This document shows, in pieces, positions 28,308 to 53,786 of a stretch of DNA of 64,000 nt. Numbering within the stretch: the stretch's first letter is position 1; each line of letters begins with the position of its first letter. The position numbers and the translations under genes are program-made. Origin of the DNA: Rhabditoides inermis. Lineage: Eukaryota > Nematoda > Chromadorea > Rhabditida > Rhabditidae. Where the stretch lies: contig CAWZYM010000397.1 of assembly GCA_963966185.1 (NCBI GenBank), positions 295,563 through 359,562 of the forward strand. Direction: 5' to 3'. Under the pieces are notes generated by a model. That model had not been told where the DNA came from. It searched no databases and saw only the letters and a program-made list of their open reading frames with translations.

Positions 28308-31300
28308 ATGTTCTTATCCGAGAGTGCATTACTTCGGTATATTAGACAATGTGATTACCGCTACTTGGAACTATTCTGTAGGAAACACGCATATGTTATA
28401 ACAAATAATTGTTGTGCCCCACATTACCACATGTTAGACGAAGTTATGCAAGCGTTTTTGTTTGCGATAGGAACTATTTCCTCTCTTCTGCATATTTTCC
28501 TGATAATTTCAATTTATCATCAACGTAAATTTCATCGGCCTCTGCGCAGCTCGTTTTTCACATTAGTTATTTACTATGTAAGTTTCATTTACAATTACCA
28601 GTACTCATTTCATTCATTTAGTTTTGGGCTACATTGTTTCTATACATCGAGTTCAATATTCTCATGCGCGGTCGAAAATATGGGTATCTAAATTTCATAT
28701 TTTATCCTATACCAGAAGATAGTCCACTCGCTGATTTTATTCCACGAGCGTCTACGTTTATACATTATTACTTGAAGGTGAATAGTTATTTGTTAAACCT
28801 TTTAAACTGTTTTTTATAGATTGTATTAGATTTGGGGCAAATCCTTTTTGCTATCAATCGATTTTCGGCAGCGTTTCGACCCACCTCCTATGAAGCGGTT
28901 TGTGATAAAATACTTTCACGTAATTGTGCAAATTCCCAGTTATGGTCGTCCAAACTTATGTCGTTTGTGCGGTATTCTATCTGGGTGATACCACTTTGTA
29001 TAATGCTACCTGTATGTGTAAATCCACACAATGCGATCCACTATCAACGTACAGAAGCGATTATGCGACTCGTAACCGACCCAGAAACCACTAAAGTATG
29101 AGAGTATCATACTCCCACATCGATTTTTGTGTTTTTTTCAGTTCATTTCCGAAATAGACCTCAGTTTTTCACTGTTTGCCACGTCCGTTTCGCTCGTACT
29201 CTACTCGATAACAATCTACGTACTGCGCCAACATATTCAAGCCAAGGTGATTTCACATTTGGATTTCGCAGAAGTAGTATTTATCCAGCTAATTTGGGGC
29301 TAAAATCATATATATGATTTTTGCCCCAAATTAGCGTTTGGGCCCCGACCCCTTGAGTAAACATATGATTTTAGCCCCAAATTAGCGTTTAGGCCCCGCC
29401 CCCTTGAGTAAACATATGATTTTAGCCCCAAATTAGCATCTGCCAGTGTTTTAATCGATAATCAATCGATAATCAATCGATAATAGGCCCCGCCCCTTGA
29501 GCAAACAATCGATAATCAATCGATAACGCCGCGTCCCTCGGTGCAAACAATCGATAATCAATCGATAATGCCGCGTCCCTTGAGCAAACAATCGATAATC
29601 AATCGATAGCAAGCGCGCCGCGTCTGTTGATGAGGTCACCCATGCCGCGCAAACACAGCCAGTCGATCATCTACCAACTCGAGTTCAGTGAGTACAAAGA
29701 CAACCTACGATTACCAAACACATCCTGAGGTGTATTGAATAACAGGGATGCGCACACCACTTTATACAGTTTCTGTTTTTAAAGAGAACGATTTATTGTT
29801 TTAATTCTGTTGACATTTTCTTAATATTATAACTTTGAATATGGTCTATTATTGTTTATAAATCGTTTCATGCGGCTTTTATCAATAATACATCAATCAT
29901 ATCTACCGGGCGGCTAAATGACGTAATCGCCGCACCCTACAGTCCATTGACACCTTCTCACCTGTTACGTCATAAAAACCAGCACCGACTTGTTTGCTTA
30001 CCCTACCTATTGAGACACAGACAATGTCTGTCCAGATTCACTGTACTCCGAAGCAGTATTGTTGTCTACTGAAATAATGCTTATATGCTTCTCACCGAAG
30101 TGACTGTACGCATGGGTCATGTATAGTCTGACACGATTGTTGCTGACACCGCCGATAGTAGCGGTGTATCTTGCATCTGAACGAAATGCAGATAAACACA
30201 AATTATAGCTGCGCTGCGCTCCGCTATAACGCTCATTTAGAACCATGAATCGCCCTCCTTCGCAACAAACGATATAAGGGTGGAACGGGCTTTATCGTAT
30301 GTGGACGGTGCGAGCACAACACTAGTGTCAAATAAGGTGTCGGCGAAGGAGATACGCACGCCGGGGAATCCGACGGTGTCGATGAGCGCGCCAGTTCCGC
30401 GTGAGAAAACGGAGCCTGCAAGGACGGGCGAGACGGGGGAACAAGAGTTTATCGCGCTGCGAACAGAATAACGAACAACAACGAACATAGCGACAACACA
30501 ACAAGAGATAACAAATAAGCTCGGGGGACAGTAAGTAGGCAAAAAACGTTGAGAGTGGATGAAAGTGAGGGGGCGATAAGGTCGGAAGGGAGAGAGTGGA
30601 CAACATGACGGAACGGCTCAAAAGGACAACGATACAACAATACGCAACGAGGATATGGTGAGCGGCTGGGTGGCCGCGGTGAGCGGGCGGGTAAAAGAAG
30701 GAGGTCATGTGCTGGCGGCTACAGGCCGTGCAGAGCGGGAGAGGGAGAGACATAGCTGTCGAGAGATGATGCGCTCCTCCACCGTCCGGCCTTGAGCACC
30801 TTCCCGATCTCGACGCCAGAACCAATCCGGTGGGACGCTCCTCCGGAACGCAGGCCATGGGGCTTCAGCGCGGGGATGCCCAGCTTGTTGCACACCTGAA
30901 ACCTGACGACTACGGGGGTCAGATGTAAGGAAGTTCGAACCTGCGACAAGTCCTTGCGCAGCAAGTCTGGGGAGGCGGTGGTGGACGCCCTCGTGAGCAG
31001 CAACGGGCCCGATGGTGGAGTCTTGGCCCACATGATCCTCCTCTGGTCTCCTTCCGAGCCGAGCTCGACGAAGGCAGTCTGGCCGTCCCCTCTCTGGTCG
31101 GTCTTGCTGCACTTGATGAGGACGCGCAGAGTGTCGCCGTTGATCGAACAGTCCTAGAATAGTCACGTGACCCGGTCCGCCGTTCTCTCATATCCCTCAC
31201 CTCTGCTCTCAACGCGCAGACCTCGCTGACCCGCAGCAGCCCGCCGAACCCGAGGAGGGCGAGGATGCCGGCTCGGTAGTCCCTCAGCTCGTCCCCGACG

Positions 31301-34300: not shown

Positions 34301-37300
34301 GCGCGTCCACTCCGTCGGCGAGCTTGAGGACCGAAGGGTCCCTGTCCGCCGCGACCACGAGGTGGTACCTCTTCTCGAGCACGGAAATCGCCTCCTTGAT
34401 CTTCTCGGTGGGGTCGCGGGAGACGAGGGTCTCGTCGAGGGAAGAGAGAGCCTTGTGCAGGACGGATGCCTGGGCTGCGAAAGACTTGTTGGCCAAGGCA
34501 GGGGGCTGAGCTCGAGGCTCGCGCAGCTGAAGGAACGGCCTGAGGCTGGCAGCCAGCACGTCAAGAGCAATGGGAGCACCCGGAGCGGGGGCTGCGGGCG
34601 GGGCAGGAGGCGCGGCCGGAGGGGCAACCACTGCTGCGGGGGCCGCGACAGGCGGAACAGCACCGGGCACTACAGGCGGGGCGGACATACTGCAAAAGAA
34701 AATTGGCTGAAAGATAGTCAGTCACCTGCAATCAAATTTGGCTGAAATGCGGGTAAAATCATGCGCTTTGAAGGGACGAAAAAAATATGCGAAATGAGGG
34801 AAAACGTCCTAAAATTTGAAAGGGGCCTAAATGAAGGGCACGTACTGAACGGCGAAGGCAAGAGAAGGATGAGACAGAACGGGAAAAAAGGATATGAAAC
34901 CTCCAAAAAAAAAATTATCCGTACTTCAGGAAAATGATCGAAAACAAAAAACAGGTTAACGATATAAAAACACACCGTCCACAACGTCACCAAGCGCGTA
35001 GAATGAGGATCGGTGGAATTTCACAACACTCATCGCGCGCAAAGTGAACAGATACTCAGCCAACAGCTCGAGACTACGGTAACGCCGCGCGACCGCTCCG
35101 CGCAAGCTCAGTCGGGCGGAGTTCTAAACACGCAAACTAACCACAATTAGAGTTGCGGAGAGCTGCGGGCCAATTCCGCGTCGCGCCTCAGACGTGCCAA
35201 CTCAGAGTCGGTCACTGCGTGGCGATGAACGAGCAGATTTGACATGTCCAGTTGCAGAGCAGCCTGTAAATTAGCAATAAGGAAAAATGTAATAAAAGGG
35301 ACCAACCAATTAATAATTCGAGGGACCAACCAATTCTTCAGTTAATTGTCATAGTTCTTTTGACTGTTTACAGTATTGACAGTATGCAATTGATAGCGTG
35401 TCGCAGCGCTGCCCCACCACCCTGGCGTGTCTAGGCATGCGTGCTGATGAGCATGCGCCAGCTGCGTGCCACGTGTGCTGATCATCTACTGCCACATGCT
35501 CACCAAGTACAAGTTACGAAACATGTTAAAATTGTGAAGGGTTGATGGATACGCTTACGAAACGAGAGTGTAATAAAATGCGACTGAATGTATCTTCTAA
35601 CTCGAGGGACCAATGTATTGTTATTTGTTTTCGCCCGTTCCTATTTCGAAGTTATTGCAACTATGCCTATGTTGTCACTCACAAACTCTCTTTTGCTCCT
35701 CCTCCACCAGTCTCTGATTCTCTATAAGTTAACATGATAGAGTAGCGTAATTACGTCATTCGTTCATTCACATCCATCATGAGTGGTCGCATTATTCGAC
35801 ACATCAATTTTCTTCGCCGCGTACAGAAAAATGGTTCTTTGATCAAAACAGCTTCCAACGGAGAGATTGGAATTCTCATTGAACTTGTTTATAACCTCAT
35901 TCATAATCGACTAAAGGTGGACGCCGTGAAGAAGAAGATATTCAAGAGATACATGGAAACACTAGTTGTTCTTTCTCAGATACGCCAATGTGAAAAGGCG
36001 AGACAGGCGCTTTTGACGGATGGAAAGATTCTTGTCAAACCTCTCGCAGAGGCCGCCGTCATGGCAGTACGAGAACCGATATAGTCACTGCAATTGAGCC
36101 GATCATTAATACTTTTGTCATTTTCTTGTGCGGTTGTTTGAAAAAATGAATAAATGTCCATGTGACAACTATAGCTCGATTGCCAGCGATGTCTCAACAA
36201 GAGGCAACGCTTTGTATGACAATAGATTGACTGAAGCACAAAAGTTTGCATTTTATGCTGATCATATTGCGCGTTCTATAGATTTGAATCAGCAAATTTG
36301 GTGGGATAAAAGTGCTCATGTAAATAGTGGAATGGTTTTTGATTGTTACTGTAAGAGTAAGACGATACCACCGCCCGCCACGACATCACCGCGCCAGCCC
36401 ATATTTCAACCCGTCCGCCGGAATGATAAGGTGTCAGACGGAAAAGTCTTTCCTAGTGAACCAGAGGAATCGGGCGCAGATGACTCAAACAAAGTGTTTG
36501 AAAAGGGAGCGGACCAAGCGGACCATGCGCCTACACTCCGAACTCGGAAACGTCTGAGGACTGAAGAGAACGAGGAGGAAGGAAATAAGAAGAAGAAGAT
36601 CAAGCTTCAAAACGGCAGCGGATATGACAGGCTACGAATTCGTTTGTGGAAAACAGCAATTTAAACTTCTTACCAGCTGATTAAGTGTGCATGTAATGAC
36701 CCCACGTCTGAGTGAGAGTGAGGTCGTGCCGCATTCGCGCTCTGCTCGCCTGCTAATTGCTCTGTGAGCAGACGAGGATTACGGTAATGTGCCGATCAAT
36801 GCTTAAAGATGTATTATAACACAAGTGTTCAACAGAGATGAGTTTTGACACAATAAAATTATGTAGAGTTAAATTCCCATAATTTGTAAAATAAACAAAC
36901 ACTTATAAAATATGAGTGGCAGAAAGACACGTGTGAACGTGTCTGACTAAAACTTCACTCTGACAACTGTTAAATATACACTGGTAAATGATTAGAAATG
37001 TATTAACTATTGCGCTGATCGCATTTCGCAATGGAATGTGGGGATTTCGTTTCGAGACATTAATGATCGATGGTGGTTTTACATAAGAACAAAAGGCTGG
37101 ATAGAGGCGATAGAGGATGAAAAATTTGATCTCACCTACTCACTATTGCCTTTTCTCAAACTATTTATGTCATATTCACTACAGAGGGAACTGAAAACAT
37201 AACCAGAAATTGCGTTTTAGGTTTGGTGAGTTAAGGATATGCATATATCTGAAATCTCCATGAAAAAATATCCATGACAAAGTACATACAAAAACACATC

Positions 37301-43300: not shown

Positions 43301-46300
43301 GTGACTATATCGGTTCTCGTACTGCCATGACGGCGGCCTCTGCGAGAGGTTTGACAAGAATCTTTCCATCCGTCAAAAGCGCCTGTCTCGCCTTTTCACA
43401 TTGGCGTATCTGAGAAAGAACAACTAGTGTTTCCATGTATCTCTTGAATATCTTCTTCTTCACGGCGTCCACCTTTAGTCGATTATGAATGAGGTTATAA
43501 ACAAGTTCAATGAGAATTCCAATCTCTCCGTTGGAAGCTGTTTTGATCAAAGAACCATTTTTCTGTACGCGGCGAAGAAAATTGATGTGTCGAATAATGC
43601 GACCACTCATGATGGATGTGAATGAACGAATGACGTAATTACGCTACTCTATCATGTTAACTTATAGAGAATCAGAGACTGGTGGAGGAGGAGCAAAAGA
43701 GAGTTTGTGAGTGACAACATAGGCATAGTTGCAATAACTTCGAAATAGGAACGGGCGAAAACAAATAACAATACATTGGTCCCTCGAGTTAGAAGATACA
43801 TTCAGTCGCATTTTATTACACTCTCGTTTCGTAAGCGTATCCATCAACCCTTCACAATTTTAACATGTTTCGTAACTTGTACTTGGTGAGCATGTGGCAG
43901 TAGATGATCAGCACACGTGGCACGCAGCTGGCGCATGCTCATCAGCACGCATGCCTAGACACGCCAGGGTGGTGGGGCAGCGCTGCGACACGCTATCAAT
44001 TGCATACTGTCAATACTGTAAACAGTCAAAAGAACTATGACAATTAACTGAAGAATTGGTTGGTCCCTCGAATTATTAATTGGTTGGTCCCTTTTATTAC
44101 ATTTTTCCTTATTGCTAATTTACAGGCTGCTCTGCAACTGGACATGTCAAATCTGCTCGTTCATCGCCACGCAGTGACCGACTCTGAGTTGGCACGTCTG
44201 AGGCGCGACGCGGAATTGGCCCGCAGCTCTCCGCAACTCTAATTGTGGTTAGTTTGCGTGTTTAGAACTCCGCCCGACTGAGCTTGCGCGGAGCGGTCGC
44301 GCGGCGTTACCGTAGTCTCGAGCTGTTGGCTGAGTATCTGTTCACTTTGCGCGCGATGAGTGTTGTGAAATTCCACCGATCCTCATTCTACGCGCTTGGT
44401 GACGTTGTGGACGGTGTGTTTTTATATCGTTAACCTGTTTTTTGTTTTCGATCATTTTCCTGAAGTACGGATAATTTTTTTTTTGGAGGTTTCATATCCT
44501 TTTTTCCCGTTCTGTCTCATCCTTCTCTTGCCTTCGCCGTTCAGTACGTGCCCTTCATTTAGGCCCCTTTCAAATTTTAGGACGTTTTCCCTCATTTCGC
44601 ATATTTTTTTCGTCCCTTCAAAGCGCATGATTTTACCCGCATTTCAGCCAAATTTGATTGCAGGTGACTGACTATCTTTCAGCCAATTTTCTTTTGCAGT
44701 ATGTCCGCCCCGCCTGTAGTGCCCGGTGCTGTTCCGCCTGTCGCGGCCCCCGCAGCAGTGGTTGCCCCTCCGGCCGCGCCTCCTGCCCCGCCCGCAGCCC
44801 CCGCTCCGGGTGCTCCCATTGCTCTTGACGTGCTGGCTGCCAGCCTCAGGCCGTTCCTTCAGCTGCGCGAGCCTCGAGCTCAGCCCCCTGCCTTGGCCAA
44901 CAAGTCTTTCGCAGCCCAGGCATCCGTCCTGCACAAGGCTCTCTCTTCCCTCGACGAGACCCTCGTCTCCCGCGACCCCACCGAGAAGATCAAGGAGGCG
45001 ATTTCCGTGCTCGAGAAGAGGTACCACCTCGTGGTCGCGGCGGACAGGGACCCTTCGGTCCTCAAGCTCGCCGACGGAGTGGACGCGCTGGCCGCACTGC
45101 CCGGCGGATCTGGAGTGGACGACCCTCTTCGTCTCCTTCTGCTTTCCAAGGCCCTCCAGGGAGATAGCGGTAGGGAGTCTCGCTCGTCGCGCTCCGACGA
45201 CCGGCGTCGCTCGAGGTCCCGTTCGCCCTTTCGGACCGGGGACGGTGGCAGCCGTGGCCGCCGTCCCGCTTCCGGATACGGCATGGGCAACGGCTCCGGA
45301 GGTTCCTCCTCCAAGTCCCGCTGCTTCCGTTGCCAGCGCTTCGGCCACGTCGCCGCCAGCTGCCGTCATTGGTGAGTTTCTGGGTGATGGTGTGAGGGAA
45401 TGTCTGGGGTTCTGGCTCGCTATTGGTGCCGGTCCGTTTGTCGCTTCGGTCATCCGGCGCGGTTTCTCTCTTGACTTTGTCTCCGACCCCGTCGTGCCTA
45501 AGGAGCCTAATAGGGCGTCTTCCAGGGAGCACGGTAAGTTTGTTGACGATTCTATTGCTAGTTATCTTCGAGACGGAGTGGTGTCGGAGGTGTTTTCGGA
45601 GCCCGACGTCGTCAGCCCCCTCTCAGTCGACGTGCGCCCGTCTGGCAAGCTGCGGCTGATTCTGGATTTGAAGCGGCTCAACGCGTTCCTCCCAAAGTAT
45701 CCTATGCGTTTCGAGGACGCGCGGACTCTCTGGAGCTTCGCGAGGTCATTCACCTTCGGGGCCACTTTCGATTTGCACGCCGGCTACCACCACTTTCAGA
45801 TAGATCCTCGAGACCGCCAGTTCCTCGGTTTTCAGTGGGGAGAGACAGTACACGGAGTTCCTAGGTTCTTCACCTTTACAGCGCTCCCCTTCGGCCTTTC
45901 CCCCGCGGCGTTCGTCTTCTCTAAGTGCCTGCGCGTGTTGGTCGAGCACTGGAGGGCAGACGGGATACAAGTGACCATGTTTTTAGATGATGGAATTATC
46001 CTAGGGCGTTCGGAGCTCGAGGTGCAACAAGCTGTTGACAGGGTCAGGAGGGACCTCGTGTCAGCGGGTCTCGTGGCCGCCGAGGAGAAGTGCCAGTGGC
46101 ATCCGCGAGACGTCGTCGAGTGGTTGGGCCTGGTTTGGGACCTGAGGCGGAAGGAGGTGTGGCCCTCTTCGCGTAGGCTGGAGAGTGCGATTGACCGTGT
46201 TGAGAAGTGCCTCAGTGGGCGTGGTGGTCTCAGTGGGCCAGAGCGATCAGTGTCGCTCCTTCAGTGTGTCAACGGGACTCTTGCATCGCTAAGCCTGCTC

Positions 46301-49300
46301 GTTCCAGATGGCCTGCGGAACACGAGACGTCTCCTCTCTTTGGCTGCAGACGGCTCTCTCCGATGGTGGCACGGTGACGAGGAGGTGGAGGTGCGGCAGG
46401 GACACGCGAACATCGGTAAGTCTCGAGTGATTGGAGATGCCGAATTGAGGGAGTTGCGCTGGTGGCTATCGGTTCTGCGAGCCGGTTGCCGCAGGTCTTT
46501 GTACGACGACGAGCGGCCTTTCAGTGTGATAATTGAGACTGACGCGTCAGCGGACGCCCTAGGAGTTATCGTGAGGAAGGGCGATGAGGAGCGTAGCACA
46601 TCTAGAAATCTCTCCCTCGAGGAAGAATGCCAATCGAGTGCGTACAGAGAGTTGCTAGGAATCCTTTTCGCGGCAGAAGTCTTCGGCGGCGAGTGGAGGG
46701 GATTAAGAGTGTTGTTCAAAACCGATAGCACTTGCGCCAGCCTTATTATCGAGAGAGGTAGCATGAGTGACAAGCTGCAAGCCCTGTGCGAGCGGTTCTG
46801 GGAGTGCGCTAGGGTACACGGGTTTGACGCGGTCGTTTCGTGGGTGCCCCGCGGTGAAAACGCGGCAGCGGATTCGGAAAGCAGAGTGGTGGATACGGAC
46901 GATTGGGGAATAAGGCCCGATATCTTCAGGCTCGTCTCTCGCCGCTTCGGGCCCCACGACGTCGACATCTTCGCCTCCAGCACCAACCACCAACTTCCCC
47001 GGTTCTTCTCCAGGAGACCCGATGTCGGTTCCCTCGGCTGCGATATCTGGAGGTCGGTTGAAGCATGGGAAGGGAGGTTGTGGGCCTGCCCTCCCCCCAA
47101 GTTGATTGCTAGATTTCTGTCGGAGGCCGAAAGGAGACACTCTAGGGGTACTTTGGTGGCCCCCCTGTGGCGCAGCGCCCCCTACTTTCCTCTGCTCAAA
47201 CCTGGCGGCGAATGGGCGCCTTTCGTGGTGGACTCCCTCGTATACGGCAAGGGAGCAAGGGTCATCACCCCCGCACCCAGGGGTAACGAAGTCTTTAAGT
47301 CGGATAGGCTAGATTTCCCTCTCGCCTTCATCAGCTTTGCGTTCTAGCTCACCGGTTTTTCTGTTCTAGCCCGTTCCACCCTTATATCGTTTGTTGCGAA
47401 GGAGGGCGATTCATGGTTCTAAATGAGCGTTATAGCGGAGCGCAGCGCAGCTATAATGCGTGTTTAGAACTCCGCCCGACTGAGCTTGCGCGGAGCGGTC
47501 GCGCGGCGTTACCGTAGTCTCGAGCTGTTGGCTGAGTATCTGTTCACTTTGCGCGCGATGAGTGTTGTGAAATTCCACCGATCCTCATTCTACGCGCTTG
47601 GCCCCACCCTCCCACCCCGTCTCACTCCGGCGCATTGCAGGTCTCGCCGAGAGAGCGGCGTTTCTGCTGGCTCCGCAGGTCGGCAGGGACCTCCAGAGCT
47701 GCAGAGAGCTGTTCGAGAAGGTCATCAGCACCAGCAAAGCCCCGACTACCATATCCGCTTACAAGTCCGCCATCGGCCAACTGTGCCATTTTGCCGAGCA
47801 GAACCAGCTCCCCGAGGGAGACGCGTCGACCCTGATCGCATTCCTCCTGGACAGATTCGAGAGGAAGAAGGCGATCGGGCCGGTGATCCCGGCGAGTAAC
47901 CTGTTCTGGGGATCTGCGATCCAGGTGAGCAAGCGTTCGGTCGTACGAGATTTGACGCGACCGTTTCAGCCCGACTTAGCGGCTCTGGTGGGCCGTTTCG
48001 GCGAGTGTGCGCGCAGAGCGAGGCCCCCGGCTACGCACAGCAGTCCCGCCTCGTTGCACGACGTCAACAAGATAATCATCAACGGAGTCGTCGGGGACGA
48101 GCTGAGGGACTACCGAGCCGGCATCCTCGCCCTCCTCGGGTTCGGCGGGCTGCTGCGGGTCAGCGAGGTCTGCGCGTTGAGAGCAGAGGTGAGGGATATG
48201 AGAGAACGGCGGACCGGGTCACGTGACTATTCTAGGACTGTTCGATCAACGGCGACACTCTGCGCGTCCTCATCAAGTGCAGCAAGACCGACCAGAGAGG
48301 GGACGGCCAGACTGCCTTCGTCGAGCTCGGCTCGGAAGGAGACCAGAGGAGGATCATGTGGGCCAAGACTCCACCATCGGGCCCGTTGCTGCTCACGAGG
48401 GCGTCCACCACCGCCTCCCCAGACTTGCTGCGCAAGGACTTGTCGCAGGTTCGAACTTCCTTACATCTGACCCCCGTAGTCGTCAGGTTTCAGGTGTGCA
48501 ACAAGCTGGGCATCCCCGCGCTGAAGCCCCATGGCCTGCGTTCCGGAGGAGCGTCCCACCGGATTGGTTCTGGCGTCGAGATCGGGAAGGTGCTCAAGGC
48601 CGGACGGTGGAGGAGCGCATCATCTCTCGACAGCTATGTCTCTCCCTCTCCCGCTCTGCACGGCCTGTAGCCGCCAGCACATGACCTCCTTCTTTTACCC
48701 GCCCGCTCACCGCGGCCACCCAGCCGCTCACCATATCCTCGTTGCGTATTGTTGTATCGTTGTCCTTTTGAGCCGTTCCGTCATGTTGTCCACTCTCTCC
48801 CTTCCGACCTTATCGCCCCCTCACTTTCATCCACTCTCAACGTTTTTTGCCTACTTACTGTCCCCCGAGCTTATTTGTTATCTCTTGTTGTGTTGTCGCT
48901 ATGTTCGTTGTTGTTCGTTATTCTGTTCGCAGCGCGATAAACTCTTGTTCCCCCGTCTCGCCCGTCCTTGCAGGCTCCGTTTTCTCACGCGGAACTGGCG
49001 CGCTCATCGACACCGTCGGATTCCCCGGCGTGCGTATCTCCTTCGCCGACACCTTATTTGACACTAGTGTTGTGCTCGCACCGTCCACATACGATAAAGC
49101 CCGTTCCACCCTTATATCGTTTGTTGCGAAGGAGGGCGATTCATGGTTCTAAATGAGCGTTATAGCGGAGCGCAGCGCAGCTATAATTTGTGTTTATCTG
49201 CATTTCGTTCAGATGCAAGATACACCGCTACTATCGGCGGTGTCAGCAACAATCGTGTCAGACTATACATGACCCATGCGTACAGTCACTTCGGTGAGAA

Positions 49301-51717
49301 GCATATAAGCATTATTTCAGTAGACAACAATACTGCTTCGGAGTACAGTGAATCTGGACAGACATTGTCTGTGTCTCAATAGGTAGGGTAAGCAAACAAG
49401 TCGGTGCTGGTTTTTATGACGTAACAGGTGAGAAGGTGTCAATGGACTGTAGGGTGCGGCGATTACGTCATTTAGCCGCCCGGTAGATATGATTGATGTA
49501 TTATTGATAAAAGCCGCATGAAACGATTTATAAACAATAATAGACCATATTCAAAGTTATAATATTAAGAAAATGTCAACAGAATTAAAACAATAAATCG
49601 TTCTCTTTAAAAACAGAAACTGTATAAAGTGGTGTGCGCATCCCTGTTATTCAATACACCTCAGGATGTGTTTGGTAATCGTAGGTTGTCTTTGTACTCA
49701 CTGAACTCGAGTTGGTAGATGATCGACTGGCTGTGTTTGCGCGGCATGGGTGACCTCATCAACAGACGCGGCGCGCTTGCTATCGATTGATTATCGATTG
49801 TTTGCTCAAGGGACGCGGCATTATCGATTGATTATCGATTGTTTGCACAGAGGGACGCGGCGTTATCGATTGATTATCGATTGTTTGCTCAAGGGGCGGG
49901 GCCTATTATCGATTGATTATCGATTGATTATCGATTAAAACACTGGCAGATGCTAATTTGGGGCTAAAATCATATGTTTACTCAAGGGGGCGGGGCCTAA
50001 ACGCTAATTTGGGGCTAAAATCATATGTTTACTCAAGGGGGCGGGGCCCAAACGCTAATTTGGGGCAAAAATCATATATATGATTTTAGCCCCAAATTAG
50101 CTGGATAAATACTACTCGCAGAACATTGTTTTTATACATGATCTATAGATTTATAAAATTTACAATTTACATTTACATATTATTTATTGTCACATCTAGA
50201 AAGTGCAGTCTTCGTTCGAGCTGCGTCTGCTCGCCTCGTCTGTGGCGTTGTGCGTGGTGTTCAGTACGAACACTGCCGTCCAACTCGCCACCATACTCGC
50301 CGATCCAGACACGGTCATGTACCTGCACGGACTCAGGTATATTATTATAGTTCACACTGTACACACAAAATATATTGTGGAAAATACGAGAAAAACCTGT
50401 GTGCAAAAAAGCGTATCAATACGCTTTACTTATTTGCGTGTTTATGTACCACGTAGATTTTTTTTCGTTATTTGGACTGGAACTTTATATGTTCGTGTTG
50501 ATGGTGGATTTCTCGTTCTTTATGTCGCAGTAGTACAAGACACCCTCGGTTTTACACTATCCATTAGTGCGCGTATAAGTCTACTACGTGCAGGTAGAAA
50601 ATTGGTTACTGTTTTCTGATTATCTTTCAAAAGTACTTCCAAGTAAAAGTAGTTGGTTTGTACTGTTGTCTCAGTTGAGCAAAAGGACTGACATGTTTTC
50701 AATGGAGACATGTGCCAACAGGCTCTCTCTCTCATACCAGTGCAAAGCGGCCATATTATAATGAACGCGTTTACAAAGTTATGCAGTTATTATCTAAAAA
50801 CACAACTTCTGTTGTAACATAACACGTCGAATAATGCTGAGAGCCTGTTTGCACATGTCTCCATTGAAAACATGTCAGTCCTTTTGCTCAACTGAGACAA
50901 CAGTACAAACCAACTACTTTTACTTGGAAGTACTTTTGAAAGATAATATCTGTCCTTTTCTTAAGTTTTGTTTCACAAAATTATATTTTCATACACGTTC
51001 GCGATTCGCTGCGAGGATACCGACGCGCACCCGCTATTCGCCTCTCTCTCTCACTCACACACAGAGGGGGCGGGGCGAAAGCGATTGTCCGACGCCCGAC
51101 ACCAATCTCAATCCGCACTCGAATGCGGACTCTCCGTATCTCGCTTCAAATTCAATCAAACTCAATACAACTTTCTATAACTCTATCGAATAGAGATGTG
51201 AATGCAATGTAACAGTGGAAATCACTTCAAAATGAGGAAAAGTGCTTCATCCGGGAAAAGTCGTTTTTGAGCATTCTAGCGCGCGGGGACATCCAGTACA
51301 AACGAGAGGGCGCTGGCGCGCCCTCTCTAATTGCACACGCTTGATTGCCACTCAAGTTTTCAAGCATTGCATTATCGTCACGAGTAGCAAATGAGATGTG
51401 AGCACGGAGTGTGCTGGCGCACATATAGACATTAGACATACGCACATTACATACATAAAACAATTAGAGGAAATCTGTAACATTGTTATATTATGTCACT
51501 GTCCAACAGACTTACGGTCACTGTTTTCAGTTATCCAATCATCGACCTTCTCTATTCCACTCAACCGTGGGTGCTTCTGCTGACGGCGTCTGTGATTCGT
51601 CCGGCTATGCGGAGGACGCTCCACTCGCTCGTCCGCCCTCACAAACTCCGCGCCTCTGCTCCTGTGAACGTTGCTGTTTCTCCAGCTAACACACCACACA
51701 ACATTTCCGTGCATTGA
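28308..51717 (+). CDS. 7TM chemoreceptor gene (Srg-superfamily-like), split by a 20.8-kb intronic insertion
   Basis: Six exons, all phase-consistent: 28308-28577, 28622-28777, 28820-29095, 29142-29246, 50200-50336 and 51531-51717. The first exon starts MFLSESALLRYIRQC and contains a hydrophobic helix (FLFAIGTISSLLHIFLIISI). Later exons give further hydrophobic helices, the motif LGQILFAINRFSAAFRP (as in nematode Srg/Srv/Sru receptors), IWVIPLCIMLPV, SLFATSVSLVLYSITIYVL, RLLASSVALCVVF, and the last helix with SYPIIDLLYSTQPWVLLL. Subfamily not assigned. The fourth intron starts at 29247 with GTGATT and ends at 50199 with TCTAG. It would be only about 100 bp without the palindromic element, which lies wholly inside it, so the coding frame is intact and could still be spliced. 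Expression across a 21-kb palindromic intron is uncertain. Confidence 0.7.
29267..29272. repeat. Target-site duplication, left copy (CGCAGA)
   Basis: CGCAGA directly precedes the first base of the left arm, and the same six bases follow the right arm at 50117-50122. A 6-bp duplication is the Polinton/Maverick hallmark. Collapsing the two copies restores a normal short intron of the chemoreceptor gene. Confidence 0.85.
29285..29640. repeat. Subterminal tandem repeats, left end
   Basis: Outer block: three units of about 55 bp built on CTAATTTGGGGCTAAAATC, CATATG and a GGCCCCGCCCCCTTGAG core, the first arranged head-to-head. Inner block: about four units of about 47 bp with ATCGATAATCAATCGAT and GCCGCGTCCCTTGAG. 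The mirror copy is at 49749-50104. Such arrays often bind a transposase or initiator; that role is inference. Confidence 0.85.
30007..30176 (-). CDS. Arm ORF tail next to PAT, left copy
   Basis: Mirror of 49213-49382; see that entry. Confidence 0.3.
30719..31748 (-). CDS. PAT tyrosine recombinase, left-arm copy
   Basis: Mirror of 47641-48670, with the same two short introns and catalytic residues; see that entry. Confidence 0.85.
32042..34018 (-). CDS. PAT reverse transcriptase-RNase H, left-arm copy
   Basis: Mirror of 45371-47347; see that entry. Confidence 0.88.
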   Translation of the reverse strand, partial: GEFLGDGVRECLGFWLAIGAGPFVASVIRRGFSLDFVSDPVVPKEPNRASSREHGKFVDDSIASYLRDGVVSEVFSEPDVVSPLSVDVRPSGKLRLILDLKRLNAFLPKYPMRFEDARTLWSFARSFTFGATFDLHAGYHHFQIDPRDRQFLGFQWGETVHGVPRFFTFTALPFGLSPAAFVFSKCLRVLVEHWRADGIQVTMFLDDGIILGRSELEVQQAVDRVRRDLVSAGLVAAEEKCQWHPRDVVEWLGLVWDLRRKEVWPSSRRLESAIDRVEKCLSGRGGLSGPERSVSLLQCVNGTLASLSLLVPDGLRNTRRLLSLAADGSLRWWHGDEEVEVRQGHANIGKSRVIGDAELRELRWWLSVLRAGCRRSLYDDERPFSVIIETDASADALGVIVRKGDEERSTSRNLSLEEECQSSAYRELLGILFAAEVFGGEWRGLRVLFKTDSTCASLIIERGSMSDKLQALCERFWECARVHGFDAVVSWVPRGENAAADSESRVVDTDDWGIRPDIFRLVSRRFGPHDVDIFASSTNHQLPRFFSRRPDVGSLGCDIWRSVEAWEGRLWACPPPKLIARFLSEAERRHSRGTLVAPLWRSAPYFPLLKPGGEWAPFVVDSLVYGKGARVITPAPRGNEVFKSDRLDFPLAFISFAF
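34014..34688 (-). CDS. PAT Gag-like protein, left-arm copy
   Basis: Mirror of 44701-45375; see that entry. Confidence 0.8.
   Translation of the reverse strand: MSAPPVVPGAVPPVAAPAAVVAPPAAPPAPPAAPAPGAPIALDVLAASLRPFLQLREPRAQPPALANKSFAAQASVLHKALSSLDETLVSRDPTEKIKEAISVLEKRYHLVVAADRDPSVLKLADGVDALAALPGGSGVDDPLRLLLLSKALQGDSGRESRSSRSDDRRRSRSRSPFRTGDGGSRGRRPASGYGMGNGSGGSSSKSRCFRCQRFGHVAASCRHW
35147..35263 (-). CDS. Short arm exon next to PAT, left copy
   Basis: Mirror of 44126-44242; see that entry. Confidence 0.3.
   Translation of the reverse strand, partial: AALQLDMSNLLVHRHAVTDSELARLRRDAELARSSPQL
35779..36084 (+). CDS. 101-residue helical/basic ORF, left copy
   Basis: Single-exon ORF starting MSGRIIRHINFLRRVQKNG. 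It contains LIKTASNGEIGILIELVYNL, then a basic helix (KKKIFKRYMETLVVL), and ends with KARQALLTDGKILVKPLAEA. This layout (an AS-x-GEI helix, KKxxxKxY, and a downstream leucine-rich end) is reminiscent of the short conserved ORF found in many Polintons/adintoviruses and some animal DNA viruses; function unknown. The family link is a recollection of pattern, not a search. Preceded by AT-rich sequence; the next ORF (36146) reads the same way 61 bases downstream. Confidence 0.6.
   Translation: MSGRIIRHINFLRRVQKNGSLIKTASNGEIGILIELVYNLIHNRLKVDAVKKKIFKRYMETLVVLSQIRQCEKARQALLTDGKILVKPLAEAAVMAVREPI
36146..36664 (+). CDS. 172-residue ORF with Cys-rich start and basic tail, left copy
   Basis: Starts MNKCPCDNYSSIASDV, with no recognised family. 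It has a Cys-containing N-terminal region (CPCD, FDCYCKSK), a Pro-rich linker, an acidic stretch (EPEESGADDSN) and a strongly basic nuclear-localisation-like run (TRKRLRTEEN, GNKKKKIKLQ) ending RLRIRLWKTAI. It follows the 101-residue ORF in the same direction. Possibly a DNA- or nucleoprotein-associated virus-like protein; that is a guess from composition. Confidence 0.5.
   Translation: MNKCPCDNYSSIASDVSTRGNALYDNRLTEAQKFAFYADHIARSIDLNQQIWWDKSAHVNSGMVFDCYCKSKTIPPPATTSPRQPIFQPVRRNDKVSDGKVFPSEPEESGADDSNKVFEKGADQADHAPTLRTRKRLRTEENEEEGNKKKKIKLQNGSGYDRLRIRLWKTAI
36912..36950 (+). other. MSGRKTRVNVSD mini-ORF, left arm
   Basis: A 12-codon frame after ATAAAATATG that ends in TAA. It is a diverged copy of the exon-like MSGRKARVDVPDWN start at 39129 in the unique centre; probably a decayed 5' exon. 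Confidence 0.35.
37578..37757 (+). CDS. 59-residue ORF, left arm
   Basis: Starts MIAGGACQVASTIDLDLW and ends EKASGRPVVFR. No recognised motif. An exactly matching mirror copy lies at 41632-41811 (minus). Coding status uncertain. Confidence 0.25.
   Translation: MIAGGACQVASTIDLDLWQQPKLLLNYLNIVLTCHPQSAEYVLERRGLEKASGRPVVFR
37926..38177 (-). CDS. Single-TM small protein, left copy
   Basis: Mirror of 41212-41463; see that entry. Confidence 0.45.
   Translation of the reverse strand, partial: GNPDFATTTTSFLSNGSISRRPHGLFTTILIIFLALIVALLVVIEYYYHECECKCGEIELIFPAIPSTPSSLRPISDTTVFDS
38177..38497 (-). CDS. 106-residue acidic-start ORF, left copy
   Basis: Mirror of 40892-41212; see that entry. Confidence 0.5.
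   Translation of the reverse strand: MASSEEEGEDAFISSHLDDLANNFPSSEQLKISQFAFAHGLKYKETMSLYKRFTEIATLYYRLSMSTLPFHRRERVKINQEMDTLFAYLMRRWKVSASSLCQLLYF
38730..38868. repeat. Tandem GAGGGACCAATCA repeats across the left arm/centre junction
   Basis: Four units of about 33 bp built on TTTGAGGGACCAATCA, NTTATCAA and CTCCCAAA. The mirror symmetry stops inside the third unit (38806), so about two units belong only to the left side. Related GAGGGACCAA motifs recur at about 35315-35335 and 35604. Confidence 0.85.
39138..39353. repeat. Inverted 21-bp motif pair in the centre
   Basis: GCGTGTGGACGTGCCTGAC near 39141-39160 recurs inverted as GTCAGGCACGTCCACACGC near 39333-39352. A diverged form (ACGTGTGAACGTGTCTGAC) is in the arms near 36929. 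This may be a binding-site pair or the remnant of an inverted exon. Confidence 0.7.
39763..40158 (+). CDS. Adenain-like cysteine protease (Polinton/adintovirus-type PRO)
   Basis: 131 residues from ATG 39763. The catalytic layout of the C5/adenain family is visible: His50 in GTHWFAIKG, Asp65 in YFFDSFG, Gln94 in NQSKREVS and Cys101 in SCGGHCLFV. The Gln-Cys spacing of 7 equals that of adenovirus protease (Gln115/Cys122, established). Polintons use such a protease to mature virion proteins. The protein is shorter than usual (adenain is about 200 residues), and the sequence after CLFV diverges abruptly, so the C-terminal helices are probably lost by frameshift or truncation. It is the only ORF of clear function in the unique centre, flanked by the inverted arms. 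Confidence 0.75.
   Translation: MDSRTLNNFGRNVIDSSFLGVFPADRLPRTVPRTFSLIVNDSIHTSEGTHWFAIKGDGSTAYFFDSFGRKPVNAYICHFMRHFHIVKYNAIQNQSKREVSCGGHCLFVNGEPTIRTPAMHCSVIGSRSVCR
40379..40457. repeat. CT/CCCT microsatellite in the centre
   Basis: Pyrimidine-only tract of CT and CCCT units between the protease ORF and the right arm; open frames through it are artefacts. Confidence 0.85.
40892..41212 (+). CDS. 106-residue acidic-start ORF, right copy
   Basis: Starts MASSEEEGEDAFISSHLDDL and is largely helical (SEQLKISQFAFAHGLKYKE, TEIATLYYRLS), ending in a basic stretch and CQLLYF-stop. No family recognised. Its stop TAG lies in GTATTTTTAG, which is also a splice-acceptor-like sequence leading into the single-TM frame immediately downstream, so the two may be exons of one gene. 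Confidence 0.5.
   Translation: MASSEEEGEDAFISSHLDDLANNFPSSEQLKISQFAFAHGLKYKETMSLYKRFTEIATLYYRLSMSTLPFHRRERVKINQEMDTLFAYLMRRWKVSASSLCQLLYF
41212..41463 (+). CDS. Single-TM small protein, right copy
   Basis: An open frame entering from the TTTTTAG junction (no in-frame ATG upstream), so probably a second exon. It encodes SNGSISRRPHG, a strong membrane helix (LFTTILIIFLALIVALLVVI), then a Cys-rich juxtamembrane segment (EYYYHECECKCGE) and a short tail ending DTTVFDS. Small single-TM proteins are found in Polintons and large DNA viruses (membrane or minor virion roles), but this one has no recognised relative. Confidence 0.45.
   Translation, partial: GNPDFATTTTSFLSNGSISRRPHGLFTTILIIFLALIVALLVVIEYYYHECECKCGEIELIFPAIPSTPSSLRPISDTTVFDS
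41632..41811 (-). CDS. 59-residue ORF, right arm
   Basis: Mirror of 37578-37757; no recognised motif. Confidence 0.25.
   Translation of the reverse strand: MIAGGACQVASTIDLDLWQQPKLLLNYLNIVLTCHPQSAEYVLERRGLEKASGRPVVFR
42725..43243 (-). CDS. 172-residue ORF with Cys-rich start and basic tail, right copy
   Basis: Mirror of 36146-36664; see that entry. Confidence 0.5.
   Translation of the reverse strand: MNKCPCDNYSSIASDVSTRGNALYDNRLTEAQKFAFYADHIARSIDLNQQIWWDKSAHVNSGMVFDCYCKSKTIPPPATTSPRQPIFQPVRRNDKVSDGKVFPSEPEESGADDSNKVFEKGADQADHAPTLRTRKRLRTEENEEEGNKKKKIKLQNGSGYDRLRIRLWKTAI
43305..43610 (-). CDS. 101-residue helical/basic ORF, right copy
   Basis: Mirror of 35779-36084; see that entry. Confidence 0.6.
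   Translation of the reverse strand: MSGRIIRHINFLRRVQKNGSLIKTASNGEIGILIELVYNLIHNRLKVDAVKKKIFKRYMETLVVLSQIRQCEKARQALLTDGKILVKPLAEAAVMAVREPI
44126..44242 (+). CDS. Short arm exon next to PAT, right copy
   Basis: Follows an acceptor (TTTACAG) and encodes AALQLDMSNLLVHRH, AVTDSELARLRRDAE and LARSSPQL-stop. PAT begins 14 bases later. The flanks of PAT join into GTGGTTAGTTTGTG...TTCGTTCAG, which looks like a small intron, so PAT may have inserted into an intron of a Polinton gene whose next exon is 49213-49382. The phases do not join simply, so this stays open. Confidence 0.3.
   Translation, partial: AALQLDMSNLLVHRHAVTDSELARLRRDAELARSSPQL
44256..44399. repeat. PAT split direct repeat A1
   Basis: Starts GCGTGTTTAGAACTCCGCCC and ends CTACGCGCTTGG; identical to A2 at 47458-47601. 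Contains an ATG at 44356. Confidence 0.92.
44356..44398 (+). other. Candidate leader exon in A1 for the PAT recombinase
   Basis: ATG 44356 opens MSVVKFHRSSFYAL and reaches a donor (G|GTGACG) in phase 1. The recombinase frame begins at an acceptor (CATTGCAG, ending 47640) needing exactly one preceding base, and the join gives a Gly codon in frame. The A2 copy has the same ATG but not the donor (GGCCCC follows). Suggests a spliced subgenomic message for the recombinase. Confidence 0.4.
44701..45375 (+). CDS. PAT Gag-like protein with zinc knuckle
   Basis: 224 residues from ATG 44701, placed just after a TTTTGCAG acceptor-like site. The N-terminal part is Ala/Pro-rich, followed by a helical capsid-like region (FAAQASVLHKALSSLDETLV, IKEAISVLEKRYHLVVAAD), an Arg/Ser-rich segment (SRSPFRTGDG), and a C-terminal CCHC knuckle CFRCQRFGHVAASC. 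Presumably it packages element RNA in cytoplasmic particles. The stop overlaps the entry of the RT frame, which is open in +1 relative to gag; a GTGAGT donor also sits on the gag stop, so RT could be made by frameshifting or splicing. Confidence 0.8.
   Translation: MSAPPVVPGAVPPVAAPAAVVAPPAAPPAPPAAPAPGAPIALDVLAASLRPFLQLREPRAQPPALANKSFAAQASVLHKALSSLDETLVSRDPTEKIKEAISVLEKRYHLVVAADRDPSVLKLADGVDALAALPGGSGVDDPLRLLLLSKALQGDSGRESRSSRSDDRRRSRSRSPFRTGDGGSRGRRPASGYGMGNGSGGSSSKSRCFRCQRFGHVAASCRHW
45371..47347 (+). CDS. PAT reverse transcriptase-RNase H polyprotein
   Basis: About 658 residues in one open frame to TAG 47345-47347. The frame also runs upstream, overlapping gag, but without an obvious start of its own. 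RT motifs: GKLRLILDLKRLNAFLPK, FTFGATFDLHAGYHHFQI, FTALPFGLSPAAFVFSK and the catalytic MFLDDGIILG. RNase H motifs: IETDASADALGV, AYRELLGILFA, FKTDSTCASL and ENAAADSESR. After RNase H comes the DIRS-order module VDIFASSTNHQLPRFFSR...WACPPPKLI, which non-DIRS retrotransposons lack. It copies element RNA to DNA for circular-intermediate integration by the recombinase. No internal stops or frameshifts seen. Confidence 0.9.
   Translation, partial: GEFLGDGVRECLGFWLAIGAGPFVASVIRRGFSLDFVSDPVVPKEPNRASSREHGKFVDDSIASYLRDGVVSEVFSEPDVVSPLSVDVRPSGKLRLILDLKRLNAFLPKYPMRFEDARTLWSFARSFTFGATFDLHAGYHHFQIDPRDRQFLGFQWGETVHGVPRFFTFTALPFGLSPAAFVFSKCLRVLVEHWRADGIQVTMFLDDGIILGRSELEVQQAVDRVRRDLVSAGLVAAEEKCQWHPRDVVEWLGLVWDLRRKEVWPSSRRLESAIDRVEKCLSGRGGLSGPERSVSLLQCVNGTLASLSLLVPDGLRNTRRLLSLAADGSLRWWHGDEEVEVRQGHANIGKSRVIGDAELRELRWWLSVLRAGCRRSLYDDERPFSVIIETDASADALGVIVRKGDEERSTSRNLSLEEECQSSAYRELLGILFAAEVFGGEWRGLRVLFKTDSTCASLIIERGSMSDKLQALCERFWECARVHGFDAVVSWVPRGENAAADSESRVVDTDDWGIRPDIFRLVSRRFGPHDVDIFASSTNHQLPRFFSRRPDVGSLGCDIWRSVEAWEGRLWACPPPKLIARFLSEAERRHSRGTLVAPLWRSAPYFPLLKPGGEWAPFVVDSLVYGKGARVITPAPRGNEVFKSDRLDFPLAFISFAF
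47368..47457. repeat. PAT split direct repeat B1
   Basis: Starts AGCCCGTTCCACCCTTATAT and ends CAGCTATAAT; identical to B2 at 49098-49187. Contains an internal palindrome (AGCGTTATAGCGG with CCGCTATAACGCT-type symmetry). Confidence 0.92.
47458..47601. repeat. PAT split direct repeat A2
   Basis: Identical to A1; directly abuts B1. Confidence 0.92.
47641..48670 (+). CDS. PAT tyrosine recombinase (YR)
   Basis: Three exons: 47641-48188, 48236-48448 and 48494-48670, with short introns (47 and 45 bp) and consistent phase 0 joins; stop TAG 48668-48670. The first part is a core-binding-like helical domain (FEKVISTSKAPTTISAYKSA). Catalytic residues: Arg in LLRVSEVCAL, His and Arg in HGLRSGGAS, Trp in GRWRSASSL, and the nucleophile Tyr in LDSYVS. 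It replaces an integrase: the reverse-transcribed circle is recombined into the target without duplication. The N-terminus is probably supplied by a spliced leader exon in A1 (44356-44398). Placement between A2 and B2, downstream of RT, fits the split-repeat architecture. Confidence 0.88.
48671..49097 (+). other. PAT 3' region with open frame running into B2
   Basis: Downstream of the recombinase. From an acceptor-like CTTGCAG (about 48972) an open frame (AGSVFSRGTGALIDTVGFPG, ARSTLISFVAKEGDSWF) continues into B2 and stops in its TTCTAA. No family recognised; it may be a small extra exon or untranslated. Confidence 0.35.
49098..49187. repeat. PAT split direct repeat B2
   Basis: Identical to B1; marks the 3' end of the PAT copy. 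Confidence 0.92.
49213..49382 (+). CDS. Arm ORF tail next to PAT, right copy
   Basis: Follows an acceptor (TTCGTTCAG) 25 bases after PAT. Encodes ARYTATIGGVSNNRVRLYMT, HAYSHFGEKHISIISVDN and a Ser/Thr-rich end LSVSQ-stop. It looks like the last exon of an arm gene disrupted or spanned by PAT. Family not recognised. Confidence 0.3.
49749..50104. repeat. Subterminal tandem repeats, right end
   Basis: Mirror copy of the left subterminal arrays, with one or two base differences. Confidence 0.85.
50117..50122. repeat. Target-site duplication, right copy (CGCAGA)
   Basis: Second copy of the 6-bp duplication flanking the palindromic element. Confidence 0.85.
50619..50947. mobile_element. Fold-back (MITE-like) inverted repeat in the last intron
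   Basis: 50619-50730 (ATTATCTTTCAAAAGTACTT...) recurs inverted at about 50837-50947, with about 105 bp of spacer, forming a potential long hairpin. It lies in the 1.2-kb last intron of the chemoreceptor gene. No coding capacity. No target duplication was established, so MITE is a working label. Confidence 0.75.
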
Positions 51718-52563: not shown

Positions 52564-53786
52564 ATGGCTCAGTCACCAACACTGGAGGTCGCCGCATCGG
52601 ATGGGCCATCGAGACCACCAACATGAAGCGCCTCGGCGTCGACCCGCCAGTGTGGAGTGCTCGACCCCAAGGAGGCCGTGCTCTCGAAGATATCACCCAG
52701 CCGGTTGCCAAGATCGTCTTCAAAGCCCCCTACGATGACAAGCACACCTCCCACATCAAGGTGCGTGGTTATCGATCAGATATCGATCGATCATTGAATG
52801 ATTGATCTTTTTCAGATCACCAACACTGGAGGTCGCCGCATCGGATGGGCCATCAAGACCACCAACATGAAGCGCCTCGGCGTCGACCCGCCAGTGTGGA
52901 GTGCTCGACCCCAAGGAGGCCGTGCTCTCGAAGATATCACCCAGCCGGTTGCCAAGATCGTCTTCAACGCCCACTACGATGACAAGCACACCTCCCACAT
53001 CAAGGTGCGTGGATATCGATCAGATATCGATCGATCATTGAATGATTGATCTTTTTCAGATCACCAACACTGGAGGTCGCCGCATCGGATGGGCCATCAA
53101 GACCACCAACATGAAGCGCCTCGGCGTCGACCCGCCAGTGTGGAGTGCTCGACCCCAAGGAGGCCGTGCTCTCGAAGATATCACCCAGCCGGTTGCCAAG
53201 ATCGTCTTCAAAGCCCCCTACGATGACAAGCACACCTCCCACATCAAGGTGCGTGGTTATCGATCAGATATCGATCGATCATTGAATGATTGATCTTTTT
53301 CAGATCACCAACACTGGAGGTCGCCGCATCGGATGGGCCATCAAGACCACCAACATGAAGCGCCTCGGCGTCGACCCGCCAGTGTGGAGTGCTCGACCCC
53401 AAGGAGGCCGTGCTCTCGAAGATATCACCCAGCCGGTTGCCAAGATCGTCTTCAAAGCCCCCTACGATGACAAGCACACCAAATCTTTACAGTGCATAGC
53501 CGCAGTTTGTCTATACCTGCAGTTTAATATTCTACAAAGAGCTTGTAAATTCGGTCTTGATTTGTGGCTAAAGCATTACGATCTCACAAATCAACCTAAA
53601 AATGATAAAACTCTTGTATTCATTTCGAAAGCTGCTTCTTTCACCTATTTTTATCGAGGCAAGATTTGTTTGTTTGAAGTTACATATAGTTTACCAGTAT
53701 GTGATGGGATTCGGTTAAATGTATATTTGCAACGAATTGAGTTTTTGCAGCGTTTCTACCTCTTACATGTGAAGAAGTTCGTATAA
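52564..53786 (+). pseudogene. Circularly permuted MSP tandem array
   Basis: The start ATGGCTCAGTCA (MAQS) and promoter look like a normal msp gene, but the sequence jumps straight into the second half ([22 protein letters not shown]). Four copies of a 244-bp unit follow: a 189-nt exon-like part plus a 55-bp intron. Exon-like parts: up to 52760, 52816-53004, 53060-53248 and 53304 onward. In each unit the msp segment after VDPP carries one extra G, which shifts the normal [11 protein letters not shown] into another frame. It then runs into the N-terminal msp strand ([20 protein letters not shown]). The shifted frame is open across all four units with phase-0 introns, ending in an unrelated tail that stops at 53784-53786. 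The authentic ATG frame stops after about 20 codons. Probably a pseudogene array, but a spliced 63-residue-repeat protein is formally possible. Confidence 0.7.
52572..53481 (+). repeat. 244-bp tandem repeat (four copies) of msp sequence
   Basis: Copies start at about 52572, 52816, 53060 and 53304; the first and last are partial. Differences are few (GAG/AAG at the first copy's ATC GAG, an AAC GCC CAC variant in the second). The intron part contains ATCGATCAGATATCGATCGATC. Confidence 0.93.

Follow-up and report, generated by a model that had tools for sequence, protein, structure and literature searches.

The window analyzed here is a stretch of 64,000 nucleotides from the nematode Rhabditoides inermis (contig CAWZYM010000397.1, abbreviated C397; other contigs of the assembly are abbreviated likewise). 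It harbors a mobile element of 20,844 bp, hereafter the window element, in which two mirror-image arms enclose a single-copy center and whose insertion site is an intron in a chemoreceptor gene of the Srv family (Table 1). The window element is a degenerate member of a palindromic group of Mavericks (Polintons), and it is probably a real non-autonomous Maverick in the form of a symmetric recombinant, in which a mirrored integrase half has replaced the polymerase half. The initial annotation of this DNA did not extend to the rest of the assembly, where mirror pairs recur: 14 Maverick-gene clusters contain them, one of which (on C402) carries nearly the whole Maverick gene set.

The window element and its host site

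The arms of the window element are mirror images with a coordinate sum of 79389 and differ at only 3 of 9,534 positions (29348, 29540, and 38747), all of which lie inside tandem repeats. The symmetry ends at the outer termini on both sides and at 38806/40583, and its extent is far beyond chance; the arms comprise 19,068 of the 20,844 bp (91.5%). The termini read AGTAGTATTTATCCAGC...ACTACT, with CGCAGA on each side. On all these points the initial annotation, which had reported a near-perfect palindrome with about 92% arm, flanked by CGCAGA and ending in AG...CT, was accurate. According to PMC8097293, vertebrate Mavericks have 6-bp duplications and (AGT)2//(ACT)2 ends, and both features are found in the window element (AGTAGTATTTATCC...ACTACT and CGCAGA). 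The same source gives 46–1,447 bp (mean, 402 bp) for the terminal inverted repeats (TIRs) of intact vertebrate elements and regards ppolb as a core gene (PMC8097293). The 9.5-kb arms of the window element do not fit such short TIRs; within the same genome, an ordinary 12.8-kb Maverick on C386 has a TIR of 175 bp.

When joined, the exons on either side of the insertion encode a translation that matches the nematode chemoreceptor family Srv (PF10323, 1.2e-8; residues 6–149 of 173), in which the downstream exon, starting at 50200, supplies residue 128 onward. Because Srv exons lie on both sides, the flanks belong together and the palindrome is not a simple assembly fold-back. An empty site was sought, but the left flank is single-copy in the assembly, so no empty allele is present there. 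Contig C398 starts at window position 40153, so that 40153–64000 overlaps its start, the last base of the window being the last base of C397. It is identical to the window over the 13 kb compared and was therefore rejected as a second copy; it is read as the overlapping contig end of the same locus, with one contig breaking inside the palindrome.

Table 1. Features of the window element and its insertion site (positions in the window)
Feature	Position	Strand	Remarks
Host intron with the insertion, phase 0, Srv chemoreceptor gene	29247..50199	+	Splice sites set by eye
Left target-site duplication, CGCAGA	29267..29272		
Left arm of palindrome, 9,534 bp	29273..38806	+	3 mismatches vs right arm
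Subterminal 51-bp and 42-bp tandem repeats	29312..29608		Mirrored at 49781-50077
Nested PAT-like DIRS retroelement, left arm	~30203..35124	-	gag-like CCHC frame, reverse transcriptase (RT)/ribonuclease H (RNaseH), weak tyrosine recombinase
Arm open reading frame (ORF) 1	35746..36084	+	Mirror 43305-43643; distant homolog of the first ORF upstream of the C402 integrase (27% identity, 2e-8)
Arm ORF 2	36110..36664	+	Mirror 42725-43279; no significant match to the neighboring C402 ORF
Cargo gene	37826..38665	-	Mirror 40724-41563
Single-copy center, 1,776 bp	38807..40582		
Truncated adenain-like (C5) protease frame	39691..40158	+	Homology to other copies stops at 40086
Sequence not common to other copies	40087..40582		
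Right arm of palindrome, mirror of left	40583..50116	-	
Matching PAT-like insertion, right arm	44265..49186	+	Mirrored at equivalent site
Right target-site duplication, CGCAGA	50117..50122		

The protease frame in the center had been recognized in the initial annotation, although its truncation was overlooked. All four arms of two palindromes on C204 (C204a and C204b), together with the copy on C321, diverge from the window at 40086, and past this point C321 matches C204a at 98% over 159 bp; this common departure indicates that the window protease lacks its end and that 40087–40582 is not ancestral. Part of the latter segment (40379–40582) is 95% identical to C308:799603–799806, CT repeats included. 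The truncated frame matches PF00770 with an E-value of 0.0017, below the curated cut-off, and a His-Asp-Cys and Gln pattern, presumably the protease motif, is visible in it. In a large protein set, the frame matched one hypothetical protein (45% identity over 61% of the query, E 4.6e-12); a single-sequence structure prediction was too poor to be used (mean predicted local distance difference test score, pLDDT, 43). The window and C402 proteases share only 35% protein identity, whereas the cargo gene is 87–91% identical at the DNA level to its copies in the other palindromic lineage, which suggests that the cargo gene was recently exchanged between the two lineages.

A search of the assembly for rve-type integrases gave no match in the window element, a major capsid query gave none in the window, and protein-primed PolB was detected there neither with the Pfam PolB model nor by a protein search. 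No ATPase-like frame was noticed among the window frames, and no search aimed at an ATPase was made. These results are in keeping with the earlier statement that polymerase, integrase, ATPase, and capsid genes were not found. The window element has the ends and the duplication of a Maverick but fails on polymerase, integrase, and capsid; the C402 element has all of these but the polymerase.

Roughly half of each 9.5-kb arm (~4.9 kb) is a PAT/DIRS insertion, which leaves ~11 kb for the Maverick part; in this respect the initial annotation was incomplete. The boundaries of the insertion are approximate and were taken from the uninterrupted copies on C321 and C406. Split direct repeats enclose its frames (30193–30291 = 31923–32021, 99 bp, 98%; 31788–31932 = 34990–35134, 145 bp, 100%), RVT_1 was matched at 9.6e-15, and the Phage_integrase match (0.017) is below the cut-off. 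The nested insert has the split direct repeats, RT, and tyrosine recombinase of PAT/DIRS elements, the recombinase match being weak, and this likeness concerns the passenger only and not the palindrome itself. The PAT-like retroelement is absent from the equivalent site in C406 and C321 and thus entered after those elements had separated from the window element; since it occupies both window arms, it entered before or during their last equalizing.

Palindromic relatives in the assembly

The initial annotation had proposed a search for further copies that share these ends but lie between other 6-bp duplications, and such copies exist. The terminal 958 bp of the window element retrieved C406, C321, C398, and a partial copy of the outer arm (C355:689677–690063, 88% identical). 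The C406 element (C406:156431–163299) is an independent insertion, a palindrome of 6,869 bp with arms that are 99.8% identical and a 142-bp center. The C321 element is an asymmetric derivative whose arms differ in length, one being long and the other short, and it contains a protease as well as a nested repeat pair; both C204 palindromes carry the protease in each arm. A query with an arm gene (37869–38674) led to a second lineage on C402, C70, C130, C179, C178, and C590, in which C70 and C130 are further independent insertions with different target-site duplications (TSDs). Both flanks were read for seven elements, the window element included, and all seven start with AGTAGTAT. Six of them have perfect, mutually different 6-bp duplications (CGCAGA in the window, GATACG in C406, AATAAC in C321, GTCCTC in C402, GGCGAC in C70, and AGCGCG in C130); the seventh, C204a, has the ends AGTAGTATCTTC and the flanking 6-mers GGTGTC/GCTGTC, which match at 5/6 positions. 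C204a and C204b were not accepted as two insertions: their left flanks match, and past the right end of C204b, where 3 bases were read, its left flank is not repeated. C204b is probably a segmental duplicate of C204a. The ordinary C386 element starts with AGTAGTTG and has a perfect duplication (TCTGTC); it also carries an innexin (gap-junction) gene at C386:97917–98816 (PF00876, 1.2e-50).

The C402 element (C402:552836–588001) has arms of 11.2 kb that are 99.5–100% identical in comparisons of the three longer pieces (837, 1,167, and 5,174 bp), about 4 kb of the right arm lying outside the sequence read. Its left arm contains an rve integrase frame (2e-13) and, after it, a chromodomain frame; this arm also encodes a candidate ATPase, a protease, and capsid-like frames. 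The integrase core and the major-capsid frame occur at 100% identity in both arms, and the protease is also present in both. The integrase is split over two frames, through an intron or through a break. The major-capsid candidate and its counterpart in the ordinary C386 element share 35% identity, and the candidate ATPase aligns with that element as well. Neither candidate has a convincing Pfam match, and a capsid profile retrieved nothing from viral contigs or the protein set. The middle of the element is occupied by a long terminal repeat (LTR) retroelement (C402:564081–576091; Gypsy-like by eye, with identical 597-bp repeats), and the 663 bp that follow it are self-palindromic at 90.6%, which implies that C402 was palindromic to its axis before the retroelement was inserted. 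An AGTAGT at this axis was considered as an internal terminus and dismissed, because the bases after it differ from those of the terminus. A 361-bp repeat forms arrays outside the element, at ~1.6 kb on its left side and 4 kb on its right. The start of the 603-bp terminus of this lineage is found in mirror pairs on C70, C402, and C130 and singly on C178, C179, and C180; on C179 and C180, the missing partner would fall before the contig start. A separate 1,141-bp self-palindrome (C70:274306–275446, 98.5%) occupies the expected place of the left C70 integrase.

Matches to the protease, integrase, major capsid, PolB, and arm sequence were grouped with a 14-kb gap into 45 Maverick-gene clusters, 14 of which contain inverted pairs (C130, C144, C178, C179, C204 twice, C276, C301, C388, C397, C402, C406, C590, and C70). 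The grouping used 36 of 36 protease, 36 of 53 integrase, 42 of 68 major-capsid, 10 of 11 PolB-model, and 20 of 103 arm-sequence matches; in this whole set, one match (C397, left) was shortened to the arm. Extra fragments of loci already included were omitted, as were arm-sequence matches that were short repeats, singles at contig ends, or weaker partials (e.g., C10, C369, C308, C180, C398, and C204:822955). Coordinate sums of at least two different genes or segments agree to within 5 bases in six of these 14 clusters (C130, C179, C204b, C276, C402, and C590), with four sums at 1140835–1140838 in C402 and three at 240083 in C130; the palindromes on C144, C178, C179:3-18k, C301, C388, and C590 are deduced from coordinates alone. 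On C276 (10 kb read), the arms are at least 4.1 kb long and 99.4% identical and contain a divergent ATPase candidate. The C276 integrase and capsid share only 34–36% and 24–33% identity, respectively, with those of C402, in fragments, so the palindromic form is not confined to one lineage.

The distribution of PolB was determined with the Pfam PolB model (11 matches) and with a 1,065-residue PolB protein from C210 (45 matches), the latter matches being allotted to clusters by eye according to position. Among the 15 ordinary clusters in which integrase and capsid occur together, 11 have PolB next to them (C165, C179:48-60k, C194, C210, C221, C340, C348, C375, C407, C412, and C463), and neither search detected it at any of the nine palindromic clusters with integrase or capsid, or at any of the 14 overall. 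The difference between 11/15 and 0/9 is significant (Fisher p = 6e-4) under the assumption of independent loci, which does not hold for some of them. In C407, C375, C221, C412, and C179:48-60k, PolB lies on the opposite strand no more than 2 kb past the protease, with a 192-residue frame in between in C407. Among ordinary elements, C407 and C375 come nearest to C402 in integrase and capsid, and the axis of C402 lies a few hundred bases beyond its protease. Given this arrangement, a palindrome of the C402 type is the expected product if the integrase half of a C407-like element is mirrored at its border with the PolB half. On C348, PolB is on the integrase side, and the stretch beyond the protease has no large frame for it; an inverted pair of identical-looking frames was also seen near this ordinary Maverick (positions 2519–4322 of the stretch read).

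Within an element, the two arms show homogenization. In a 2.4-kb segment, the window arms show 0 differences and the C406 arms 2, as against 74–75 between the two elements; none of the 85 variable sites unites left arms versus right arms, and in a tree the arms are sisters with high support in each of three elements (window, C406, and C204a). These patterns suggest that either each palindrome formed after the elements had separated or the arms were copied onto each other. In addition, four elements (C130, C178, C179, and C590) have a capsid match that stops at residue 133 in each arm, and the match in the single C70 copy stops there too. Because C70 and C130 have this end in common and differ in their TSDs, spread as a palindrome is the simpler account, and the occurrence of the residue-133 end in several elements favors the spread of a ready-made palindrome combined with homogenization.

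Proposed origin and spread of the palindromes

The most probable scenario starts from the integrase half of an ordinary Maverick (terminus, integrase, ATPase, capsid genes, and protease), which would have been copied back on itself at a point immediately beyond the protease; its mirror image would thereby have replaced the polymerase half, and the same terminus would have come to lie at both ends. Protein-primed polymerases, such as those of adenovirus-type systems, can start on linear DNA at either end, and a full strand is displaced as they copy it. A switch of synthesis near the middle to the displaced or opposite strand, or a fold-back (snap-back) of the displaced strand, would leave one half mirrored. 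A Maverick-type integrase would then insert the palindromes, with 6-bp duplications at the AGTAGT ends; the single duplications show that insertion by an integrase concerned either the palindrome as a whole or its parent. The palindromic strand may fold into a hairpin whose single open end constitutes a complete origin, so that replication could restart without a partner strand. Extension or repair of such hairpins would account for the origin of the palindromes and for their near-identical arms, and palindromes would be favored once formed. They may spread ready-made, and they would need protein-primed PolB from ordinary relatives in the genome. Asymmetric deletions near the axis would give rise to single-copy centers. 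The window copy has no integrase or capsid gene left, carries a PAT-like element in both arms, and retains only a truncated protease. It is tempting to extend this scenario and to regard the polymerase-less palindromes as stable, self-perpetuating satellites of ordinary Mavericks, with a single-ended hairpin, a borrowed PolB, and arms homogenized at each cycle in more than one lineage; this extension is tentative and may well not hold. Of the two interpretations offered in the initial annotation, that of a new non-autonomous Maverick in palindromic form has good support from the ends, from the 6-bp duplications, and from relatives whose mirror arms contain integrase, capsid, and protease genes. 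The other, a distinct class that had borrowed its protease, is not supported.

Several observations weigh against the symmetric-recombinant scenario. PolB was also undetected at 4 of the 15 ordinary clusters (C167, C327:735-740k, C328, and C386), which means that its loss is not unique to palindromes; this loss was therefore set aside as a proof by itself, and a degenerate PolB could have been overlooked. The C407-type gene order is lacking in 6 of the 11 PolB-bearing ordinary clusters (C165, C194, C210, C340, C348, and C463). In C402, the 711-residue minor-capsid-like frame is intact in the right arm only and is represented by two overlapping frames in the left, the right-arm ATPase falls in the stretch that was not read, and the LTR retroelement is in one arm only, ~330 bp from the axis, so that homogenization is not immediate. 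The mirrored protease frames of C301 (C301:1141160–1148662) point outward, unlike those of the other palindromes, and this pair might be a mirror of the other Maverick half or a distinct element. Coordinate sums disagree between gene pairs by 1.2 kb in C144, where the integrase pair is the one offset from the capsid and protease pairs, and by 6.1 kb in C388. The C321 element is asymmetric, the loci are not all independent (C204a and C204b have a common left flank), and C590, C178, C179, and C180 appear to be cut by contig ends. The break of C398 inside the window palindrome shows that the region is hard to assemble. Finally, no linear, hairpin, or palindromic extrachromosomal intermediate was observed, and the supply of PolB in trans is a supposition.

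An unlikely but not negligible alternative is that an ordinary asymmetric Maverick was inserted first and that one of its ends was then overwritten with the other on the chromosome, by break repair or gene conversion, until arm sequence made up most of the element; such a process has been proposed for elements of the Foldback/Galileo type. The sister relationship of the arms within each element, the presence of the PAT-like element in both window arms, and the variation in arm-center boundaries between copies would all fit this alternative. However, it does not readily explain why the capsid match ends at residue 133 in both arms of four elements while the TSDs of C70 and C130 differ, why C402 was once palindromic to its axis, or why the terminus of its lineage occurs either in mirror pairs or singly on contigs that are seemingly cut. 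It is very improbable that two adjacent ordinary Mavericks in opposite orientation lost the middle between them: clustered Mavericks do occur (e.g., C327, and C210 with two integrase-capsid sets), but one 6-bp duplication surrounds each whole palindrome, the C402 axis lacks terminal sequence, arms are far more alike within an element than between elements, and mirror pairs are found at as many as 14 clusters. Equally improbable is an assembly fold-back, despite the start of C398 inside the palindrome and the sister contigs C178, C179, C180, and C590 that seem to end inside such elements, since a fold-back would mirror the flanks, which in the window differ and have a common 6-bp duplication and consecutive Srv exons, and since perfect duplications also surround the palindromes on C406, C402, C70, and C130 and the arms carry differences.

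Comparison with known systems

The symmetric recombinants resemble Mavericks/Polintons in their 6-bp duplications and ends and in having relatives with a chromodomain integrase, candidate ATPase and capsid genes, and an adenain-like protease. They differ from vertebrate Mavericks/Polintons in that the palindrome arms (3.4–11.6 kb) amount to up to half of the element and PolB is undetected. Very long inverted repeats such as those of the window element are also found in Foldback/Galileo elements, which have a different transposase superfamily and different target duplications. Unlike the palindromic relatives of the window element, Foldback/Galileo elements are devoid of the viral gene set, and the 6-bp duplications together with the Maverick-type integrase of the relatives do not fit them, although no search for a P-type transposase was made. 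Outside transposons, Ad12 SYREC is a symmetric recombinant adenovirus genome, i.e., a palindrome in which both ends consist of one and the same viral terminus and whose replication is protein-primed. Its arms contain host DNA and, unlike the palindromic Mavericks, it is not a chromosomal insertion. The snapback defective genomes of adeno-associated virus (AAV) (PMC8235507) are likewise defective derivatives of a linear DNA genome in which one end is doubled as a mirror image; a common mode of replication through the common terminus may be envisaged. By contrast, the AAV genomes are found in virions and depend on unrelated replication enzymes, whereas the palindromes described here are chromosomal insertions, so that the likeness is an analogy only.

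No report of palindromic Mavericks was found in the open-licence literature, as judged by titles and the beginnings of abstracts, although one may exist elsewhere; the word “palindrom” is absent from the main text of PMC8097293 and PMC11071308. It is an open question whether Mavericks replicate outside the chromosome as viruses do or move only as transposons. Symmetric recombinants are an expected residue of linear-DNA replication with template switching. A dozen or so palindromes, several with clean 6-bp duplications, would thus be genomic evidence of a replicating linear form of Maverick, and they would also imply that Mavericks generate defective, trans-dependent genomes as viruses do. If the satellite interpretation is true, these palindromes are a chromosomal counterpart of snap-back defective viral genomes. 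They also provide a natural series for the study of how long inverted repeats persist and remain identical in an animal genome.

Three minor features lie to the right of the window element: a pair of 109-bp inverted repeats, 99% identical and 500 bp from the element (50619–50947), a tandem repeat with a unit of ~244 bp (52569–53480), and a tRNA gene (62385–62456).

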